The position numbers were made by a program, and so were the translations under genes. A stretch of 27,411 nucleotides of DNA, from positions 1 to 27,411 of IMG/VR virus record IMGVR_UViG_3300006752_000170; one strand, written 5' to 3'. Source of the DNA: a virus. A model generated the notes under the pieces. It was given only the letters and a program-made list of their open reading frames with translations, was not told where the DNA came from and made no database searches. This document shows, one piece after another, positions 10,096 to 27,411 of the stretch (within the stretch, counting starts at the first letter, position 1; each line of letters opens with the position of its first letter).

Positions 10096-11322
10096 ATGAC
10101 AAAACAATCACTTGGTTTAGGTACTACAGCAAATGACAATACGGGGGATACCCTCCGTGTTGGTGGTGATAAAATTAATGACAACTTTGATGAAATTTAT
10201 TCTGCTTTTGGTAACGGAACTAATCTAACCCTTAACGTTAGCAACGCTGCAAATAACCAAGTGTTGAAGTATAACGGAACCAATTTTGTACCTGGAGACC
10301 TGAATCTCCTAACAACAGCATTAGATGTAAATAATAATAATATTACATCATCAAGTAATAATAACATTTCTTTAGTTCCAAATGGCACTGGAGATTTGAG
10401 GATTCTTGCAGGTTCTATCACTTCAACCTTTGATGGTGATGATGGGACTATAGATTTTCCTACAAAAATTAGATATATCAATGAATACACCAGTCTTGGT
10501 GTAGCTCCTACATCATCAACATATACTGGATATTTCTTCACTGTTGATGGTGATGATAACCCCTATGTAAATATTAATGTAACTGCGGGTGGTGTTGGTG
10601 ATACTGCAGCGAAGATAGCGACAGAATATTCGAGTATTGATTTTTTAAATGATGTTGACACTACTACAGTTGCACCTACTAATGACCAGGTATTAAAGTG
10701 GAGTGCTTCTTCCGCCAAGTGGATTCCTCAAGACGACCAGTCTGGACTCACAGCATTAAATTTGTTCCAAACTGTTACTGCTGATGCAGGTAGTACTACT
10801 GCAAATAGTGGAACTGATACTTTAATTATTGCGGGGGGTAATGATATTGATACAGCAATTGTTGGAGATACAGTAACAGTTAATTTTTCTGGAGTTGTTC
10901 CAAGTACATTAGAAACTCTATCAAATGTTGATTTGAGTAGTCTTGTACAAGGTGATAGTATCTATTATAACGGCACAAATTGGGTTAGAAGTCAAAGTCC
11001 TTTAACTTGGTTTGAACTGGGTTCTAATGGATCTAATCACTTTACTTTCAGTGGTGCTGGATTCCCTGTAACACAAGAAGACCCAACAATTTACGTTTAT
11101 AGGGGATTCACTTACGCCTTTGACAATAGTTCAAATGGCGCAAGTCATCCACTGAGAATTCAATCAACAACGGGTCTTGCTGGAAATCCATACACGACTG
11201 GACAGTCTGGTAATGGTACTTCAGTTCTTTATTGGACTGTTCCTATGGATGCTCCTACAACACTGTATTATCAGTGTACACAACACGCCGCCATGGCTGG
11301 CACTATCGTCGTAGTAAACTAA
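10096..11322 (+). CDS. Fibre-like virion protein with C-terminal cupredoxin-like domain
   Basis: 408 residues. The N-terminus (GLGTTANDNTGDTLRVGG, then DKINDNFDEIYSAFGNG) is a motif I know from the start of many marine phage fibre and baseplate proteins. The middle holds fibre-like strands with recurring phrases (QVLKYNGTNFVP, QVLKWSASSAKWIP, DSIYYNGTNWV). Residues about 315-408 look like a cupredoxin: YVYRGFTYAFDN, His351 in SHPLRI, then YYQC, with Cys394, His397 and Met400 in CTQHAAM, close to the plastocyanin C-x2-H-x4-M loop. That gives a plausible type-1 copper set, although binding is not shown. The ATG follows a late promoter; no good Shine-Dalgarno sequence is seen. The next gene starts 8 bases after the stop. 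Alternative: the fold is kept only as a structural beta-sandwich. Confidence 0.85.
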   Translation: MTKQSLGLGTTANDNTGDTLRVGGDKINDNFDEIYSAFGNGTNLTLNVSNAANNQVLKYNGTNFVPGDLNLLTTALDVNNNNITSSSNNNISLVPNGTGDLRILAGSITSTFDGDDGTIDFPTKIRYINEYTSLGVAPTSSTYTGYFFTVDGDDNPYVNINVTAGGVGDTAAKIATEYSSIDFLNDVDTTTVAPTNDQVLKWSASSAKWIPQDDQSGLTALNLFQTVTADAGSTTANSGTDTLIIAGGNDIDTAIVGDTVTVNFSGVVPSTLETLSNVDLSSLVQGDSIYYNGTNWVRSQSPLTWFELGSNGSNHFTFSGAGFPVTQEDPTIYVYRGFTYAFDNSSNGASHPLRIQSTTGLAGNPYTTGQSGNGTSVLYWTVPMDAPTTLYYQCTQHAAMAGTIVVVN

Positions 11323-11330
11323 TAAAGTAA

Positions 11331-14300
11331 ATGGCAAGAACAGTTCCTGGCTCTGGCGCAGAGATTAAACCAATCTTTGACAAATTATTTGGCGTTCGCG
11401 CAGTAGAGGTCATTAATCCTGGAAGTGGATATGACCCTGAAGATCCTCCAAGATTAACGGTCACTGGTTGTGGGACACCTAGTGAAGAATGTTTATTATA
11501 TCCTATCATTGATGGTCCTTCAGGTAAGATTGTTCATGTACGTGTTCTTAGTAGGGGTCGGGGGTATGACCCACTAAGACTTAATATTATCCCCTCGGCA
11601 GAAACTACTGGTGTTGTAGATTCTTTTGATATTAATAGAATTTGGCAAAGTCATCCAAACTCACTAACTTCAGGAACCTTCCAATCCGATACGGATAGAC
11701 TCAGAATTGTATCTGACAATGATCCCAAACCCGCTGATATTTTCTCAGAACGTTCTGGCGGAGCGGGTCTTATTGCAGATAGAAGTTTCGACCAAACTTT
11801 CATTTATAGAGGGGGTAAACAAGTACCTTTTGGTCAGAATAGACCTTTTCAGAAAAATAAATCACTTGGCATTATGGCCAATGGTACATTACTCCATACA
11901 CCAGAATGGGGAAATGCACTTGGTAATGCTCCAGAAGGATTTGAATTAGATACAGTCTATAATGATAACCCTAAGAATACTGATGTATACGATGGAATTA
12001 TCGATAATCAAACTTATTACTATCAGTCATCTAAATTAGTTGAGCATTTTAAAACTACACATGGAGTACTTGATTGGGGACTTCATGAAGTTTTTACTTG
12101 GTATGTAAAAACTGAGCTTGATAATGTATTACTAACTGTATCTGGTATCGATGAAGTTCTTAATCCTATAGAGGTAGGAAGAACAGTATTGAAGATTGGG
12201 GATAATTCTGTATCTGGAGAAATTGCAAAGATTATAAGAGATGATAATAATATAATCACCTCGGTTTATGTTAGACAAGTAACTGGAGTGTTTACTGTAG
12301 AAGATAGAATATTGGGTTCTACTGGATTTTCATTCACAGTTTCTGCAGAACCCAGAGCATTTCCTTCAGGTATTTTTTATATTGACTTTGGTGAAGAAGC
12401 TCATGAGTTTGGTAATTTCATTCCTGGAGTATATTACCTTTCCCCAGAAAATATTCAAGTTCAACAGAATTATGTAATTATTTGGAATCAGGATGATCCT
12501 AGTAATCAAGTTAGTGCCGCTTTTCCTTTAGGGCATCCAATGCAATTCAGTACCACACAAGATGGTATATTGAATTCTGGTACTTTATATTATAATAGTA
12601 CTGGAGCATCAGGTGCTCTCGGAACCGATTATGAAAATCCGTTCCGATCAATATTCATTATGAATGCTGACGAATCTAATAGAATTTACTATTATTGTAA
12701 GAATCACCGTTATATGTCTGGTTATGCTGGACATGAAGGGTATATGGTTCTTAATAATGAAATTGAAGATGAAGAACCCGAAAATAATTATTATATCAGA
12801 GATTACTACAATGAAGATATTGTAATTCTACCTGATGATATTCAAACTCAGTATACAGGTTCACTCTCTAGTTTTCAAAGAATAACAATCGAAGATAGTG
12901 GAAGTGGTACTGGTTCAACTGGCGGATTTGATATCGGTAGGCATATTGTATTTGGAAGACAAAGTGGTAACAGACAACTCAGACTATATTTAGATCTTCG
13001 TAATGTGTCTACATTGACATTTGAAGTTATCAGGGGAAGTGATTCCAATGGCGGTGAAAATCCTGATGGTAATGCAGAAAGTCTTAGAGTCTTTTTTGGT
13101 GGTACTGCATATGGTTCTAGTGTCCTAGTCGCATATAACAACTCCAACTTCAATACTTTAAATAATGTAACTATAAGTATTCCTCCAGACTCCAGAAAAG
13201 AAAATCAACTTGTTTACGTTTATCAATTTAGCAACAGTGGTACTAATTTTGATTCATATGGACTTAAGTCCATAACCTATGGTGGTGGAGAACAGGATTT
13301 ATCTCGTCATCCTGACGGACATTCTAAAATTCTAGGTATGTCTTTTGACGGTTATCCCATTTATGGACCATATGGATATTTTGGAACCAATAACTCTGTA
13401 GTAAGAGCATCATCCTCATATCGTCTCAAATCTGGTATTGAAGTAGACGGAGCAAGACCCGAACAAGTTGCTGCAGAAACAGTCACATATGCTGTTACTG
13501 TTAGTAATAATAAATTTTTATATGATGCTACCTCCCCATCCTTCCTGAATCTGAAGCGAGGTAAAACTTACGTTTTTAATCAGGATGATTCTTCTAATGA
13601 TGGAAATATTTTACTACTATCTACTGCTGAAGATGGTTGGCATCCTACATCAGACGTTGAGGATATTTCAAATAAAGTGAATTTATATGAACATCCAAGT
13701 ATTACATATACTCTGAATGGTTCTTCTGTAACTTATGATAATTATGTTTCAGGATTTACTACTGCAACTACAAGGTCATTATCTATTGCAATGCCTTCGG
13801 ATTCGCCTAGAGTTTTAAATTCTTTTAGTTATGCTAATGCATCCTATGGAGTAAGAACTGTTCAAGATGGTTATGCCATGGGTAGTCTTTATCAAGATTA
13901 CATCTATGATGAGACTGAAGGCACCCTAGATGAACATAATGGTGTTTACATATCTACTCCAGAATATCCTAATGGAACATATGCATATTTTTTAACAGAA
14001 GATTCTTCAGGCAATCCAACTTTTCCATATTGCGTCGGACCAACATATTTTGGAACACCTTTGTTTGAAGGCGATGATGTTCCTGATTTAGCAACAGAAG
14101 TTCCTACTATTGCTGAGGGCAATGTAGTTTTAGAAGACGATGGAACTGTATCCTATATTCAAATGACTAAAACTGGAGATGGATATTTTTCTCCTGCAGT
14201 GGCACAAATTATCGGTGGAGAAGGTTCTGGTGCAACCGCATCTCCTGTAGTTCAATCAGTTACAGGATTAACTCTACTTAATGAAGGTAAATCATTTGCA

Positions 14301-15965
14301 ACCCCTCCAACTTTGATATTTGAAGGTGGTGGTGGACAGGGTGCTCAAGGTGCTGCTTCTATTAGTTCTTTAGGTAAAGTTACTAGTATCAATATTATTG
14401 ATGAAGGTGATTTTTATCAAACTTCTCCATACATCCTAATTGATGGTGGTGGTGGACAGGGTGCGAAGGCAATTGCCAATATTAATCAAGGTGTAATAAC
14501 AAGTATAGATATTCTTGACCAGGGTGGCGGTTATGTAAATCCTCCTAATATCATCTTCACAAAACTGATTAACTTGAAGAGGACTACAAAAGCCAGACAA
14601 TCATTTAACAGTGCCTTCCAATACCTTACTGGTCTTACTAAAGATATTGACGCATCTTCTGAAGAAATTTTTGTATCATCTACAGATGCATTTCCTGGTT
14701 CTGGTACATTCCTTCTCAATAATGAGATTGTTACATACACTGGAAAAACCAGAGGAAAGTTTACAGGTCTTACTAGAGGAACGAACTTTAATTATGACCA
14801 AAGGATAATTCTTGATACATCACAAGATGTTGCTGGCATTTCCAACTACAACTTTAATGTTGGTGATAGAGTTATTAGAAGGGTTGAAACTGCTAGTAGT
14901 AAAATTGCCAAGGTTTACGATTGGAGACCAAGCACTAGGGAATTATTTGTAACTTTTGAAGTTGACGAACTAGCATTTATTGATGCTGGTATTGCCTCTA
15001 CAGAAGACGCTATTGTTCAATTTAATGCTGGATTACCAGATAGTGCTGGAGGATCAGCACTTCCACATACAACAGAAGTTAGTATAGGTTCTCAAATCTT
15101 TAGATTGCAGTTGACTGGAATTACAGTTGCTCCTGATATCGACTTTGTTGACATTGCAGAGAACGATGGTGCTGGAGATGGTATTCCTGATTTGTCAAAT
15201 ACAGGAACGGATTACGAAAATCAAATTAGTTTGGACGGCGGAATCTACAATTCACTATATGGTATTGAAGAAACACAAGGTGGTACAAATACCACTCTAT
15301 TTGCTATTGGTGATAATATCCTAGATGCAACTCCATTCCCTGAGCAAAAATTCGCAACCGTTTCTACTGCGGGTGGATTATCCGAAGGTGTCGAACATTC
15401 GGCACAAGTTAAGATTACCTTAGATAAGACCGATGGAAACGGTCAAAATTATGGAGTGAATGAGATTGTCACGGGCGATCTTTCTGGAGTTACTGGAACA
15501 GTAGTTTCTTGGGATACCTCAACGGGCATATTGGTTGTTCAAAGTATTACACCATTTAATACAGGTAATGTTAATATTGGTGTTAATGGTTTCCTAAATG
15601 AATTTTCTGCTAAGAGTTCAATTGTTGATATCGTCGTACAAGAACCTGGTACAAACTATTCAGCACCACCAACTGTAGTTATTGAAAATGCTGGCGATAT
15701 TCAATCAACAGCGGTTGCAGTAATGACAGTAGCAGGTGACCAAGTTAGTTCTGTAACTATTAGTAATGGTGGATATGGTTATAAGCAGGAAATTACAACT
15801 AATATTTTACACCCAACAATTACATTTACTAATGACGCATCAGATACAACTGGTTCTGGTGCAGTAGCATATGCAATCTTGGGAGGAGAGAAAATAGCAG
15901 GTAGTGCTGGTGCTTCTTATCGCATTAAAAATATTGAATATCAGACGGTTGTACAAACCTCATAA
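11331..15965 (+). CDS. YHYH-domain virion structural protein with cupredoxin-like domains
   Basis: 1,544 residues; ATG 8 bases after the previous stop. Domains in order: N-terminal Gly-rich modules (GSGYDPEDPP, GRGYDP); cupredoxin-like A (nt 12349-12765) with His402 in GHPMQFST and Cys456, His459, Met462 in YYYCKNHRYM; a reelin-like jelly roll (12860-13290); a YHYH-type domain recognised by HPDGHSKILGMSFDGYPIYG (13309-13368) and EYPNGTYAYFLTED with PYCVGPTYFG (about 13960-14055), split by a third cupredoxin-like segment; three Gly-rich 40-residue repeats (14140-14560); an NNEIVTYTG module (14640-14850); and a final GTNYSAPP module. No enzyme signature is seen. It sits directly before gp8, so a baseplate role is likely. 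YHYH domains are of unknown function. Confidence 0.85.
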   Translation: MARTVPGSGAEIKPIFDKLFGVRAVEVINPGSGYDPEDPPRLTVTGCGTPSEECLLYPIIDGPSGKIVHVRVLSRGRGYDPLRLNIIPSAETTGVVDSFDINRIWQSHPNSLTSGTFQSDTDRLRIVSDNDPKPADIFSERSGGAGLIADRSFDQTFIYRGGKQVPFGQNRPFQKNKSLGIMANGTLLHTPEWGNALGNAPEGFELDTVYNDNPKNTDVYDGIIDNQTYYYQSSKLVEHFKTTHGVLDWGLHEVFTWYVKTELDNVLLTVSGIDEVLNPIEVGRTVLKIGDNSVSGEIAKIIRDDNNIITSVYVRQVTGVFTVEDRILGSTGFSFTVSAEPRAFPSGIFYIDFGEEAHEFGNFIPGVYYLSPENIQVQQNYVIIWNQDDPSNQVSAAFPLGHPMQFSTTQDGILNSGTLYYNSTGASGALGTDYENPFRSIFIMNADESNRIYYYCKNHRYMSGYAGHEGYMVLNNEIEDEEPENNYYIRDYYNEDIVILPDDIQTQYTGSLSSFQRITIEDSGSGTGSTGGFDIGRHIVFGRQSGNRQLRLYLDLRNVSTLTFEVIRGSDSNGGENPDGNAESLRVFFGGTAYGSSVLVAYNNSNFNTLNNVTISIPPDSRKENQLVYVYQFSNSGTNFDSYGLKSITYGGGEQDLSRHPDGHSKILGMSFDGYPIYGPYGYFGTNNSVVRASSSYRLKSGIEVDGARPEQVAAETVTYAVTVSNNKFLYDATSPSFLNLKRGKTYVFNQDDSSNDGNILLLSTAEDGWHPTSDVEDISNKVNLYEHPSITYTLNGSSVTYDNYVSGFTTATTRSLSIAMPSDSPRVLNSFSYANASYGVRTVQDGYAMGSLYQDYIYDETEGTLDEHNGVYISTPEYPNGTYAYFLTEDSSGNPTFPYCVGPTYFGTPLFEGDDVPDLATEVPTIAEGNVVLEDDGTVSYIQMTKTGDGYFSPAVAQIIGGEGSGATASPVVQSVTGLTLLNEGKSFATPPTLIFEGGGGQGAQGAASISSLGKVTSINIIDEGDFYQTSPYILIDGGGGQGAKAIANINQGVITSIDILDQGGGYVNPPNIIFTKLINLKRTTKARQSFNSAFQYLTGLTKDIDASSEEIFVSSTDAFPGSGTFLLNNEIVTYTGKTRGKFTGLTRGTNFNYDQRIILDTSQDVAGISNYNFNVGDRVIRRVETASSKIAKVYDWRPSTRELFVTFEVDELAFIDAGIASTEDAIVQFNAGLPDSAGGSALPHTTEVSIGSQIFRLQLTGITVAPDIDFVDIAENDGAGDGIPDLSNTGTDYENQISLDGGIYNSLYGIEETQGGTNTTLFAIGDNILDATPFPEQKFATVSTAGGLSEGVEHSAQVKITLDKTDGNGQNYGVNEIVTGDLSGVTGTVVSWDTSTGILVVQSITPFNTGNVNIGVNGFLNEFSAKSSIVDIVVQEPGTNYSAPPTVVIENAGDIQSTAVAVMTVAGDQVSSVTISNGGYGYKQEITTNILHPTITFTNDASDTTGSGAVAYAILGGEKIAGSAGASYRIKNIEYQTVVQTS
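12349..12765 (+). other. Cupredoxin-like domain A with His-Cys-His-Met
   Basis: The encoded segment runs from FPSGIFYIDFG through YVIIWNQDDPSN, GHPMQFSTTQDG and SGTLYYNSTG to IYYYCKNHRYMSG. The HP and C-x2-H-x2-M residues (His402, Cys456, His459, Met462) match in order those of the C-terminal domain of the preceding gene. Related domains with GHP..ST..DG and YYYC..H..M are known in marine phage virion proteins. Copper binding is inferred only. Confidence 0.6.
12860..13290 (+). other. Reelin-like jelly-roll domain, copy 2
   Basis: RHIVFGRQSGNRQLRLYLD, then STLTFEVIRGSDSNGGENPD, AESLRVFFGGTAYGSSV, NNVTISIPPDSRKENQLV and FDSYGLKSI match copy 1 at 5920-6400 in order and spacing. The pair shows that neighbouring giant proteins share domains. 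Confidence 0.55.
14281..14520 (+). repeat. 120-bp direct repeats (40-residue Gly-rich units)
   Basis: Two full units lie exactly 120 bases apart. ATGAAGGT occurs at 14281 and 14401, and a 20-base block GGTGGTGGTGGACAGGGTGC occurs at 14325-14344 and 14445-14464. A third partial unit begins near 14515 (DQGGGYVNPPNI). The encoded unit has the form E/Q-G-x-x-(Y/F)-x-x-x-P-x-(I/L)-x-x-(D/E)-G-G-G-G-Q-G-A. The identical block points to fairly recent duplication or recombination. Confidence 0.85.
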
Positions 15966-15998: not shown

Positions 15999-17531
15999 AT
16001 GGCAGCTTTACTTACTGATCAGTTTAGAATTTATTCCGCGAATAAATTTATCAAATCGCTTGAAGGTCCCGATGCTAACCAAAGCGATGCAGCTGCGGGT
16101 GAGGACAGAGACAGAGTGTACCTATTCATTGGTAGACCCCAATCTTGGGATAATGAAAATTCTCCCCCTCAAGCAGTAGATTCTTTTCAAGAATTCTCAA
16201 ATTCTTTCGATGACATGATTTCTCTGAAGCGAGTTCTTGCTTCAGACACAATTCAGGTTGTTAGAAGAATCGATTGGGTTTCTCCTGAAGAAACTACGGG
16301 TGGACTAGGTTTTACTTATGACATGTATCGTCATGACTATTCTCCTAGTAAGACAGCATCTTCTGGTGCCACCAAATTATATGATTCGGATTTCTATGTT
16401 GTAAATTCTCAATATCAAGTATATAAGTGCATTTATAACGGAACTTCCCCATCAGATCCTAACGGCAAACCCTCTACAGTTGAACCTACTGGTACTTCTA
16501 CATCTATTATTACTACTGGCGATGGATATCGTTGGAAGTATATGTACACTATTCCAGTTGCTTCAGTTCTTAAGTTCTTCTCGAACGATTACATGCCCGT
16601 CTTTGCAAATGACGCGGTAAGAACTAATGCTGTTGCTGGAGAAATTGATAGCGTTGTTATCAACTCTTCTGGTTCTGGATATAATAATGGAACTTATGAT
16701 AATGTTGCCATCAATGGTGATGGTGCTGGTGGTAGATTATCTATTGTTGTTGATGGTGGTAAGATTATTTCTTCTACCGTTACATCTGGCGGTACTGGAT
16801 ACACGTTCGGTAAAGTTAGTGTAGATAATATTACTGGTATTGGTACAGGTACTGGTGCTCAAATTGACGTTATTATTCCTCCCCCAGGTGGACATGGTGA
16901 GTCTCCATCGATTGAGTTGGGTGCTTTCAGGGTTATGATTAATGCCAAACTTTCATACGATGAAGGTGCTGGCGACTTCCCAATTGACAATGATTATCGT
17001 CGTATTGGTCTGATTACTAACCCATTAAAGTTCGGCACCGAAGAACTTATTGCAGACCTCACAGTGTCTGCAGCAAAAGCAGTTATCTTCTCTCCAACTT
17101 TCCAGGGAAATTATGCACCTGATGAAATTATCACTCAAAGTAGGGTTGTTGGTGGTCAAACTACAACTGCTCGCGGACGAGTAATTTCTTGGAATCCCAC
17201 AACCAAACTTCTGAAGTATTATCAGAACGCTGTTGATGGTATTTTCCCAGAAGTTACAGGTACACAAAACGAATTCGATGGTTCTAATGCCATCGCTGGT
17301 GCAACTTCAGGTGCAGCTGGGCAACCAGATGTAAATTTTCCTGCAGTTCCCAATACTTCTTCTAGAACTATTAACAATACCGAATATGATTTGGGTATGA
17401 AATTTAATAATGGATATGCTAAACCAGAAATTAAATCTGGGAGCGGTCAAGTTGTTTATATAGATAATAGAAGAGCAATTAGTCGTGCAAACGACCAAGT
17501 AGAAGACATCAAAATCGTAATCGAGTTCTAA
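15999..17531 (+). CDS. 8: Baseplate wedge subunit gp8 (T4 gp8 homologue), enlarged
   Basis: 510 residues against 334 in T4. Several blocks match T4 gp8 in order: FIGRPQSWDNENSPP (T4 FITFGRSEPW.NEN), VVRRIDWV (T4 VIPRRDWG), GDGYRWKYMYTIP (T4 GDGYVWEYLFEIP), NDYMPV (T4 NEYIVV), YRRIGLITNPL (T4 FRQISIITNPL; residues 339-343 are ITNPL) and the C-terminal VVYIDNRRAISRANDQ followed by EDIKIVIEF (T4 MIYMENRPPIIMAMDQTEEINILFTF in part). In T4, gp8 dimers form part of the baseplate wedge around gp7 and gp10, and this is expected here. Two stretches have no T4 counterpart: about residues 211-305 (SSGSGYNNG, SGGTGYTFG Gly-rich modules) and about 345-475 (DEIITQ..GRVISWNPTTKLL). The stop codon overlaps the next ATG. 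Confidence 0.92.
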   Translation: MAALLTDQFRIYSANKFIKSLEGPDANQSDAAAGEDRDRVYLFIGRPQSWDNENSPPQAVDSFQEFSNSFDDMISLKRVLASDTIQVVRRIDWVSPEETTGGLGFTYDMYRHDYSPSKTASSGATKLYDSDFYVVNSQYQVYKCIYNGTSPSDPNGKPSTVEPTGTSTSIITTGDGYRWKYMYTIPVASVLKFFSNDYMPVFANDAVRTNAVAGEIDSVVINSSGSGYNNGTYDNVAINGDGAGGRLSIVVDGGKIISSTVTSGGTGYTFGKVSVDNITGIGTGTGAQIDVIIPPPGGHGESPSIELGAFRVMINAKLSYDEGAGDFPIDNDYRRIGLITNPLKFGTEELIADLTVSAAKAVIFSPTFQGNYAPDEIITQSRVVGGQTTTARGRVISWNPTTKLLKYYQNAVDGIFPEVTGTQNEFDGSNAIAGATSGAAGQPDVNFPAVPNTSSRTINNTEYDLGMKFNNGYAKPEIKSGSGQVVYIDNRRAISRANDQVEDIKIVIEF

Positions 17532-26058: not shown

Positions 26059-27411
26059 ATGGCAAATAGAATTCAGTTACGACGTGGTTCAGCTACCCAA
26101 TGGAGTAATGCGAATCCAACTCTTGCTCAAGGTGAACTTGGGATTGAACTTGATACGGGTCGCATAAAAATTGGGGATGGTGTTACTGCATGGAACTCTC
26201 TTAGGTATGGAAGACCTATTGAATCAGTTTCATCCACTGCAAATACGTTGGTGCAGCGAGATGCTGACGGAAACTTTCAAGCAGGTACTGTTACTGCAAC
26301 ACTAATTGGTAATGCTTCTACTGCATCGAGATTATCTTCAACTCGTCAGATTCAATTATCACAAGACGTTACTGGTTCTGGTATTTTTGACGGTTCTGCA
26401 AACCTCAATATCAATGCTGTTCTCGGTCTAATCTCAACACTCCCTCATTATGACGGAACAGAGAATTCTTCTGCAACTTATACAAAAGTTACTGTTGATT
26501 CTAAGGGTAGGGTAACTAATGCTGAAAATCCAACAACAATCCAAGCATATGGATTAGATGGTACTGTTGTTGGAAGTTCTGCACAACCATATGACAACGA
26601 TTTAACAGCAATCACAAACCTTACTGATGGTTCTGCTGGTTTTGGTTTAATTTCTAGAACATCGATTGGTAATATCACAGTTAGAGATATTGACTCTTCA
26701 TCAGGAAGAACTGTCGTTAGTAATGGGGACGGCATTAATGGCAATCCTACAATTGACTTAGCAAATACCACTGTTGTTCCAGACCCATCCGCTCATTCTG
26801 ACGGTGACTATAATACAGAAAGTCTCACATCTGTAAATTCTGTTGGATCAAAAGGAGAACTCTTAGGAACCGAAACTGTAAACACTGTTAAATTTACAGT
26901 AGATAAGTACGGTCGTCTTCAAAGTTCAACAAATGTGCCTATTGCTACTGCTACCGAGGGTAGTAAGTATGCTAACTATGATGCAGGCACTGCTTATTCC
27001 AGATATGCAATCATTCAGAATGCATCAAAAGTCTACCAAGCGATTGCAGACATTGGTGCTGGCGTTGGTGCTCCTACTCATTCCAGTGGTGATACTGGAT
27101 CATGGCGTTACCTCGCGGCTGAGGCAACGGAGCAGAAGGGACTGGCTAGTTTTGCACAGGAAGATTTCGACGTTGACAGCAACGGGCATGTCACAATCGC
27201 CGCAGTAGGTGTTGATAATACACAATTACAGAATAATAGAGTCTCTTTTGCTGATGGAAATACAAAAGAAGATTTTGAACTTGATCAGGAACTTACTGCA
27301 ACCACTGGATACAGAGGATTCAATTATCTTAACTATCTTAAAGTTAATGATACGAGCGGTAATCTACTTGTTGGCGCTAATAATACGGGGGACAGCGGAG
27401 CTGGCGAACTT
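26059..27411 (+). CDS. Tail fibre/adhesin, N-terminal part (3'-truncated by the window edge)
   Basis: The frame is open for 451 codons to the end of the window. The ATG at 26059 begins MANRIQLRRGSATQWSNANP; the following LAQGELGIELDTGRIKIGDG and TAWNSLRYG complete a domain like the N-terminal domain of the major tropism determinant, common at the base of phage fibres. Next come tail-fibre-repeat-like segments: LIGNASTASRLSSTRQI, LSQDVTGSGIFDGSANLNI, and YTKVTVDSKGRVTNAENP; a second VKFTVDKYGRLQSS follows near 26890-26930. Such repeats form trimeric beta fibres. The receptor-binding end is outside the window. No good Shine-Dalgarno sequence is seen. The gene has its own late promoter and an upstream terminator. 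Confidence 0.88.
   Translation, partial: MANRIQLRRGSATQWSNANPTLAQGELGIELDTGRIKIGDGVTAWNSLRYGRPIESVSSTANTLVQRDADGNFQAGTVTATLIGNASTASRLSSTRQIQLSQDVTGSGIFDGSANLNINAVLGLISTLPHYDGTENSSATYTKVTVDSKGRVTNAENPTTIQAYGLDGTVVGSSAQPYDNDLTAITNLTDGSAGFGLISRTSIGNITVRDIDSSSGRTVVSNGDGINGNPTIDLANTTVVPDPSAHSDGDYNTESLTSVNSVGSKGELLGTETVNTVKFTVDKYGRLQSSTNVPIATATEGSKYANYDAGTAYSRYAIIQNASKVYQAIADIGAGVGAPTHSSGDTGSWRYLAAEATEQKGLASFAQEDFDVDSNGHVTIAAVGVDNTQLQNNRVSFADGNTKEDFELDQELTATTGYRGFNYLNYLKVNDTSGNLLVGANNTGDSGAGEL

Follow-up and report, generated by a model that had tools for sequence, protein, structure and literature searches.

The window, by which is meant the whole stretch of DNA that was analysed, is a virus record of 27,411 nt (27.4 kb) that matches marine T4-like cyanophages, and its gp9 protein is 95.6% identical to the gp9 of Synechococcus phage ACG-2014g (Kyanoviridae). 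The gene for this gp9-like protein is followed on its 3' side by a gp7-like baseplate gene and then by gp8 (Table 1). The first-pass annotation had described the gp9 gene product as a fibre-like protein; it is more exactly a gp9-type connector, and it belongs to the T4 gp9 connector family both by a PF07880 match above the cut-off (37.9 bits against 25, E 2.5e-9) and by a match to PHROG 677 along its length. The N-terminal segment, the neighbouring gp8 and gp7-like genes, and the connector annotation are common to T4 gp9 and the window protein, though phmmer similarity to T4 gp9 is limited to residues 4–61 of the latter, whose C-terminal end is a predicted cupredoxin domain instead. Twelve passages of PMC3004832 that deal with T4 gp9 and gp7 mention no metal site in T4 gp9. 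Elsewhere in the window, a fibre-type open reading frame (26059–27411) carries a major tropism determinant N-terminal domain (PF18454) and runs off the end of the record.

Table 1. Features of the gp9, gp7-like and gp8 genes, in window coordinates.
Feature	Position	Strand	Evidence
gp9-like baseplate wedge / tail-fibre connector, 408 aa	10096..11322	+	phrog_677 'baseplate wedge tail fiber protein connector', E 1.3e-185; PF07880; ACG-2014g identity
T4 gp9/gp10-type N-terminal segment of gp9, residues 3–61	10102..10278	+	PF07880 T4_gp9_10_N; phmmer to T4 gp10 and gp9 structures
Predicted C-terminal cupredoxin domain of gp9, residues 304–408 (~105 residues)	11005..11319	+	AlphaFold model; VIA-align; plastocyanin and amicyanin profile matches
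His351, predicted first copper ligand (HP motif)	11146..11148	+	81/81 rows; aligns to plastocyanin His
Cys394, predicted copper thiolate ligand; sole Cys of this gp9	11275..11277	+	81/81 rows
His397, predicted copper ligand	11284..11286	+	81/81 rows
Met400, predicted axial ligand	11293..11295	+	81/81 rows
gp7-like baseplate wedge protein, 1544 aa, next gene	11331..15965	+	phrog_708 'baseplate wedge subunit', E 0
Second cupredoxin-like copy, in gp7-like protein; predicted ligands H402, C456, H459, M462 (12534, 12696, 12705, 12714)	12360..12776	+	profile A1 E 1.5e-7, cup HMM E 4.1e-5 (both from searches of this window alone)
Third, degenerate copy in gp7-like protein, ligand-free here	13461..13880	+	aligned relatives; sub-threshold HMM match, domain i-Evalue 0.38
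gp8 baseplate wedge protein	15999..17531	+	PF09215 E 3.8e-20; phrog_438

The last ~105 residues of gp9 are a cupredoxin domain, as judged from a structural model and from profile comparisons. The AlphaFold model of this part of the protein has a mean pLDDT of 97 and places the first His just ahead of one strand, with the Cys, His and Met of the second motif running from the end of the penultimate strand into the loop that precedes the last one, as in cupredoxins. Structure prediction was the check that the first-pass annotation had named for its proposal of a cupredoxin-like domain, and the model is confidently of that kind, with the His before a strand and C-H-M near the last one. When the model was compared with solved structures by VIA-align, the best match (Z 10.9, 2.0 Å over 91 residues) was to residues 25–132 of the Hyphomicrobium copper nitrite reductase (CuNIR; 2dv6), the first domain and a type-1 copper domain, and rusticyanin was matched with Z up to 9.9. 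Each of the 50 PDB matches listed by Foldseek is either a copper protein or coagulation factor VIII; their TM-scores by query are moderate (0.40–0.57). A profile built from 18 relatives (A1) matched plastocyanin (E 5.3e-6) and amicyanin (E 1.9e-5) among solved structures, and a second profile from 75 sequences (A2) matched 1bxu, a plastocyanin from Synechococcus, at E 1.9e-5, in an alignment that puts the four ligands on the H, C, H and M of that protein. The first ligand falls on the plastocyanin His with profile A2 and is out of register in amicyanin in the HMMER alignment of profile A1. A Greek-key beta-sandwich and a profile relation to solved cupredoxins, two of the features by which membership of the cupredoxin superfamily was judged, are both present.

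With gp9 as a single sequence, the best copper protein in the PDB was a CuNIR at E 0.14, amid antibodies; the antibody light chains that topped this search are regarded as beta-sandwich noise and are missing from the profile match lists. The domain of the window gp9 matched none of the Pfam copper models, PF00127 included. Among its relatives, that of the Prochlorococcus phage P-SSM2 exceeds the PF00127 gathering score (23.6 bits against a cut-off of 21.2), and 45 of 75 members match PF00127 at E <= 0.1. The amicyanin equivalog TIGR02657 gave no match for the window protein and 23.8 bits for the P-SSM2 relative, against a curated score of 110.2, so that what is shared with amicyanin is loop length only.

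H351, C394, H397 and M400 are located where the first-pass annotation had put them and form a His-Cys-His-Met set in type-1 topology, being aligned to the plastocyanin ligands with C-H-M before the last strand. That annotation had also described the C-x2-H-x2-M loop as one residue shorter than the C-x2-H-x4-M loop of plastocyanin; it is indeed shorter, but by two residues, which gives it the length of the amicyanin loop. Correspondingly, HMMER aligns the gp9 loop with amicyanin gap-free and with plastocyanin across a two-residue insert in the latter. The 2,2 spacing is found in all 216 rows in which the pattern could be read (216/216, out of 234 rows in total). Two features of the site set it apart from amicyanin and plastocyanin: the first ligand stands in an HP context rather than HN, and there is no Pro between the Cys and the His. 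The window gp9 contains three His, one Cys and two non-initiator Met, and among these only the four predicted ligands are invariant (81/81 aligned rows), the non-ligand M384 being conserved in 80/81 and H315 in 23/81. C394 is the sole gp9 cysteine in 77 of the 81 rows, and the remaining four rows have two.

The conservation of the four residues was counted in several ways that differ in how far the search itself favoured the ligands. The 81 gp9 rows (57 distinct proteins) consist of the window and the best 80 of 584 relatives, collected with search words that contained no ligand, and H351, C394, H397 and M400 are invariant in all of them. To avoid circularity, the ligand columns were then masked in the profile with which the collected loci were searched; this yielded 158 distinct hits, full or partial, with the set H-C-H-M (HCHM) in 143, and among the distinct domains covered to more than 85% it is present in 139/140, the exception reading FAVM. 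These full-length domains have a median pairwise identity of 37% (minimum 21% in 3000 sampled pairs), and their median column is 46% conserved. One of the relative sets that feed the census, the best 80 of 102 loci, includes 40 loci for which the sole route of recognition was a search word with Cys and His in it, a figure that is approximate since it rests on exact matches. Once these 40 are left out, HCHM is found in 101/102, in a subset that still holds loci L082–L127, which came from BLAST or from an unmasked whole-domain profile, both of which score the ligands. A count without this ligand-scoring bias comes from two scans with search words from the part of gp9 upstream of the domain, in which HCHM is present in 47/47 distinct full-length domains. 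The second of these scans covered 70 gp9-type loci, of which 63 have a full HCHM domain; two end within the domain but still include the first His, and in five the cut lies ahead of the domain. The named gp9 proteins of S-WAM1, P-RSM6 and Syn9 also retain HCHM.

The 15 masked-profile hits that do not read HCHM comprise four copies without three or four of the ligands, one copy in S-SZBM1 (L117) and ten partial hits, the last being pieces of gp7-type copies, intact or degenerate, together with stretches of loci L142 and L166. Among the phage copies that have lost ligands, the one in RB11-B (L111, 203661–203987) belongs to a tail fibre repeat protein that carries the domain with F-A-V-M in place of H-C-H-M, and it is possibly a natural metal-free control; the others read TSS- in L165 and ANFS or ANF- in L187 and L195. 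In S-SZBM1, a 735-aa open frame retains the GHPF segment with the first His, and the Cys-His-Met loop is absent. The cellular relatives (15 loci) came from ligand-containing search words, and 12/14 of their domains at more than 85% coverage carry HCHM, with HCHQ in L221 and NCHM in L218; the cellular loci L220 and L222, at coverage 0.79–0.80, also carry HCHM. One gp7-type hit reads LCHK at 0.79 coverage in a locus (L372) whose gp9 copy has HCHM. Because such single-ligand deviations exist (L221, L218, L372), 'all or none' loss of the ligands is a trend in few events and not a rule.

The first-pass annotation had named free loss of Cys or His by homologues as the outcome that would speak against a metal site, and this is not the case, as all four ligands are kept in 139/140 and 47/47 domains. 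The fold apparently survives the loss of the ligands, yet phages very rarely lose them, and this sequence pattern is that of a metal site. The preference stated at the outset for a metal-binding role over mere reuse of a fold is likewise supported, because the ligands are almost never lost and the model is confidently that of a cupredoxin. A type-1-copper-like site is therefore very likely preserved here. That the gp9 domain holds a preserved functional metal site can be stated with high confidence, and copper is the probable metal of that site in vivo.

A related arrangement is predicted in the gp7-like protein, where the region of the first of its two copies is annotated 'baseplate wedge initiator' in S-CAM22. 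The ligands of this copy read HCHM in 84 of 96 rows and are gapped in the other 12 (two cut, nine from three phages that lack the copy and one unaligned), and in 40/40 selected rows they are invariant. By hhalign this copy is related to the gp9 domain family (E 4.8e-6), and its model reaches a pLDDT of 91, with a weak match to the cupredoxin fold (best VIA Z 5.4, again to CuNIR). As a profile search with this copy against the PDB returned nothing meaningful and its Foldseek list was headed by immunoglobulins, its fold is termed just cupredoxin-like. At the aligned place of the other, degenerate copy, ACG-2014d and S-SSM4 have HPL...C-x2-H-x2-M and S-RIM14 has GHG...C-x2-H-x2-M; ACG-2014d and S-SSM4, with their ligand set at this second place, are without the copy that is intact in the window. 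In S-SZBM1, S-WAM1 and P-RSM6 the gp7-like protein is shorter, and the C-x2-H-x2-M motif was not found in its visible parts, so that the gp7 site is not general. By sequence comparison, the gp9 site is the constant one and the gp7 site is limited to some lineages, at one of two places. The gp7-like protein of the window also contains a YHYH domain (PF14240, residues 828–892; 56.5 bits against a 25-bit cut-off).

The domain recurs in several tail proteins besides gp9. All 17 phage records scanned gave a profile match (17/17), and 12 gave between two and four matching segments, some of them belonging to a single copy; these records were chosen because they already matched, and the count is no frequency. 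A protein of P-SSM2 has two copies and corresponds by length to the BFVD entry 'putative T4-like proximal tail fiber', and tail fibres with the domain occur in an uncultured Autographiviridae phage and in a Pelagibacter phage. In ACG-2014j (L091, 776–2824) a subtilase (PF00082) is fused to the same cupredoxin domain, and the BFVD fold matches include S8/S53 peptidase-domain proteins of ACG-2014e and ACG-2014h. Among 74 loci that resemble gp9 in the N-terminal part only, eight have the domain (six full, two cut) and 66 show none in the DNA fetched, and a gp9/gp10-type protein can therefore do without it. Four records of Methylophilales phages match the whole gp9 query, and these phages are missing among the organisms returned by the domain-only search.

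Outside the phages, the 15 cellular loci come from MAGs and genomes of Bacteroidetes, Acidobacteria, Myxococcales and others, and cellular relatives of the domain occur in large proteins of marine bacteria. Some small cellular open frames consist mostly of the domain (stop to stop, 160 aa in L215 from an Acidobacteria MAG, 149 aa in L219 from a Bdellovibrionales MAG and 180 aa in L222 from a proteobacterial MAG), and NCBIfam gave no match for L215 and L219. 'Beta-sandwich proteins' of giant viruses in BFVD also match the model of the phage domain, with a TMq of 0.67 for A0A481Z6J5 of Pithovirus LCPAC302 and 0.71 for A0A481YWX9 of Marseillevirus LCMAC201.

The place of gp9 in the virion can be approached through T4. 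According to the passages of PMC3004832 on these proteins, T4 gp9 is a trimer present in 18 copies per tail and gp7 is present in 6 copies; the N-terminal domain of gp9 binds gp7, the long tail fibre docks coaxially on the C-terminal domain of gp9, and gp9 swivels along with the fibre. For the marine phages, the LC-MS rows of PMC9146016 list S-SZBM1_206, a homologous connector, in CsCl-purified virions, apparently with 9 peptides and 24.9% coverage, and the gene for this protein (L084) carries the domain with HCHM. By homology to T4, the gp9 of the window would form trimers, six per virion, with the N-terminal part seated on gp7. If the T4 geometry holds here, the copper domain would stand at the fibre socket, since it is on the C-terminal end of gp9 that the long tail fibre of T4 docks.

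A mechanism consistent with this placement can be proposed. Each gp9 domain would bind one copper ion, and with the partner gp7-like protein of this phage bearing its own predicted site, a virion would have ~18 + 6 sites if T4 stoichiometry holds. Because virion assembly takes place in the copper-poor cytosol, the copper would probably be loaded at or after lysis. The metal would then tie the loop that joins the last two strands to the one with the first His, and the outcome would be a rigid, stable socket that passes fibre movement on to the baseplate. We give the whole of this explanation, a copper-stabilised fibre socket at the C-terminus of gp9, a probability of roughly 0.55, and for a mainly structural role of the metal, taken by itself, the odds seem about even. 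Cupredoxins fold without copper, and a purely structural metal would therefore be unusual. The invariant axial Met and the exposed C-terminal His would be equally expected of an electron carrier.

The main rival to the copper-stabilised socket is a redox-active site, in which the copper of the virion would cycle between Cu(I) and Cu(II) at the cell surface and, by sensing or by exchanging single electrons, alter the state of the fibre or baseplate. The completeness of the type-1 ligand set, axial Met included (139/140; 47/47), is what such a site would have, and the nearest folds are those of CuNIR and rusticyanin, whose sites are electron-transfer sites; one cellular relative (L221) has Gln instead of Met, a replacement that still gives a type-1 site in stellacyanin. 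However, that a podophage tail fibre and several structural proteins share the domain is more like the distribution of a building block, and the Met is retained even in the FAVM copy that has lost the other three ligands, so that its invariance is no proof of redox use. On balance we regard the redox-active site as rather unlikely. A broader picture, more doubtful still, is that marine T4-like cyanophages, and some other marine phages, have tails that are metalloprotein assemblies. In these, type-1 copper centres in the connector, some gp7-like proteins and fibres would form a redox-sensitive joint, and the fibre/baseplate switch would be armed or released by copper or by electron status, either at the host surface or in the lysate.

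Two further readings keep the site and change its metal or its task, and both seem improbable. The first is that another metal, for example zinc, is bound in vivo, or that Cu(I) is held without redox use. Little free copper is available in the cytosol, the place of virion assembly, and cupredoxin sites take other metals in vitro; the ligand set and the loop, however, are those of copper proteins. The second, of still lower standing, is metal-dependent adhesion, with the copper site or its face binding a host receptor such as a metal-uptake protein or a surface polysaccharide. Such a role would suit the occurrence of the domain in fibre and connector proteins, the Pelagibacter phage tail fibre included, and that of its relatives in large proteins of marine bacteria, but the gp9 domain would be at the fibre socket and not at the tip if the T4 geometry holds, and its ligands are conserved far above the other positions of the domain (median column 46%), a pattern unlike that of a receptor-binding face subject to changes of host range. 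Metal-free reuse of the cupredoxin fold, with the four residues retained for packing only, is very improbable: site-less copies do exist (FAVM in L111, TSS- in L165, ANFS/ANF- in L187/L195, the first His only in L117, and the degenerate gp7 copy here) and the non-ligand M384 is likewise kept in 80/81 rows, but those same copies suggest that the fold tolerates ligand loss, and near-invariance elsewhere (139/140; 47/47) therefore calls for a reason other than folding.

Plastocyanin, amicyanin, rusticyanin and the first domain of the Hyphomicrobium CuNIR have the same fold, ligand order and ligand position as the gp9 domain, and amicyanin has the same C-x2-H-x2-M loop, but the gp9 domain is the end of a baseplate protein and no free periplasmic carrier. 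The plastocyanin PetE is likewise a type-1 copper protein, with the longer plastocyanin loop. Passages of PMC3037559 and PMC10436341 describe it as an auxiliary metabolic gene carried by cyanophages, where it is a separate small protein (genes of 324–369 bp in those of PMC3037559) and no part of a structural gene. Keyword searches of open-licence papers, judged from listings and passages, turned up no description of a cupredoxin domain in a phage tail. Both fold and site are already known, and their use as a conserved part of the virion baseplate/fibre joint appears to be undescribed in that literature.

Matches labelled 'cupredoxin' or 'plastocyanin-like' in viral metagenomes can be parts of tails and not metabolic genes. 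Judging from the sequences and the model, copper sites are probably built into virus particles with the gp9 domain. Should copper be bound, the machine with which abundant ocean viruses sense the host would contain copper sites in fixed number, the blue-copper fold would have a new use within virions, as a structural component or a switch, and the infectivity of these phages would be linked to copper.
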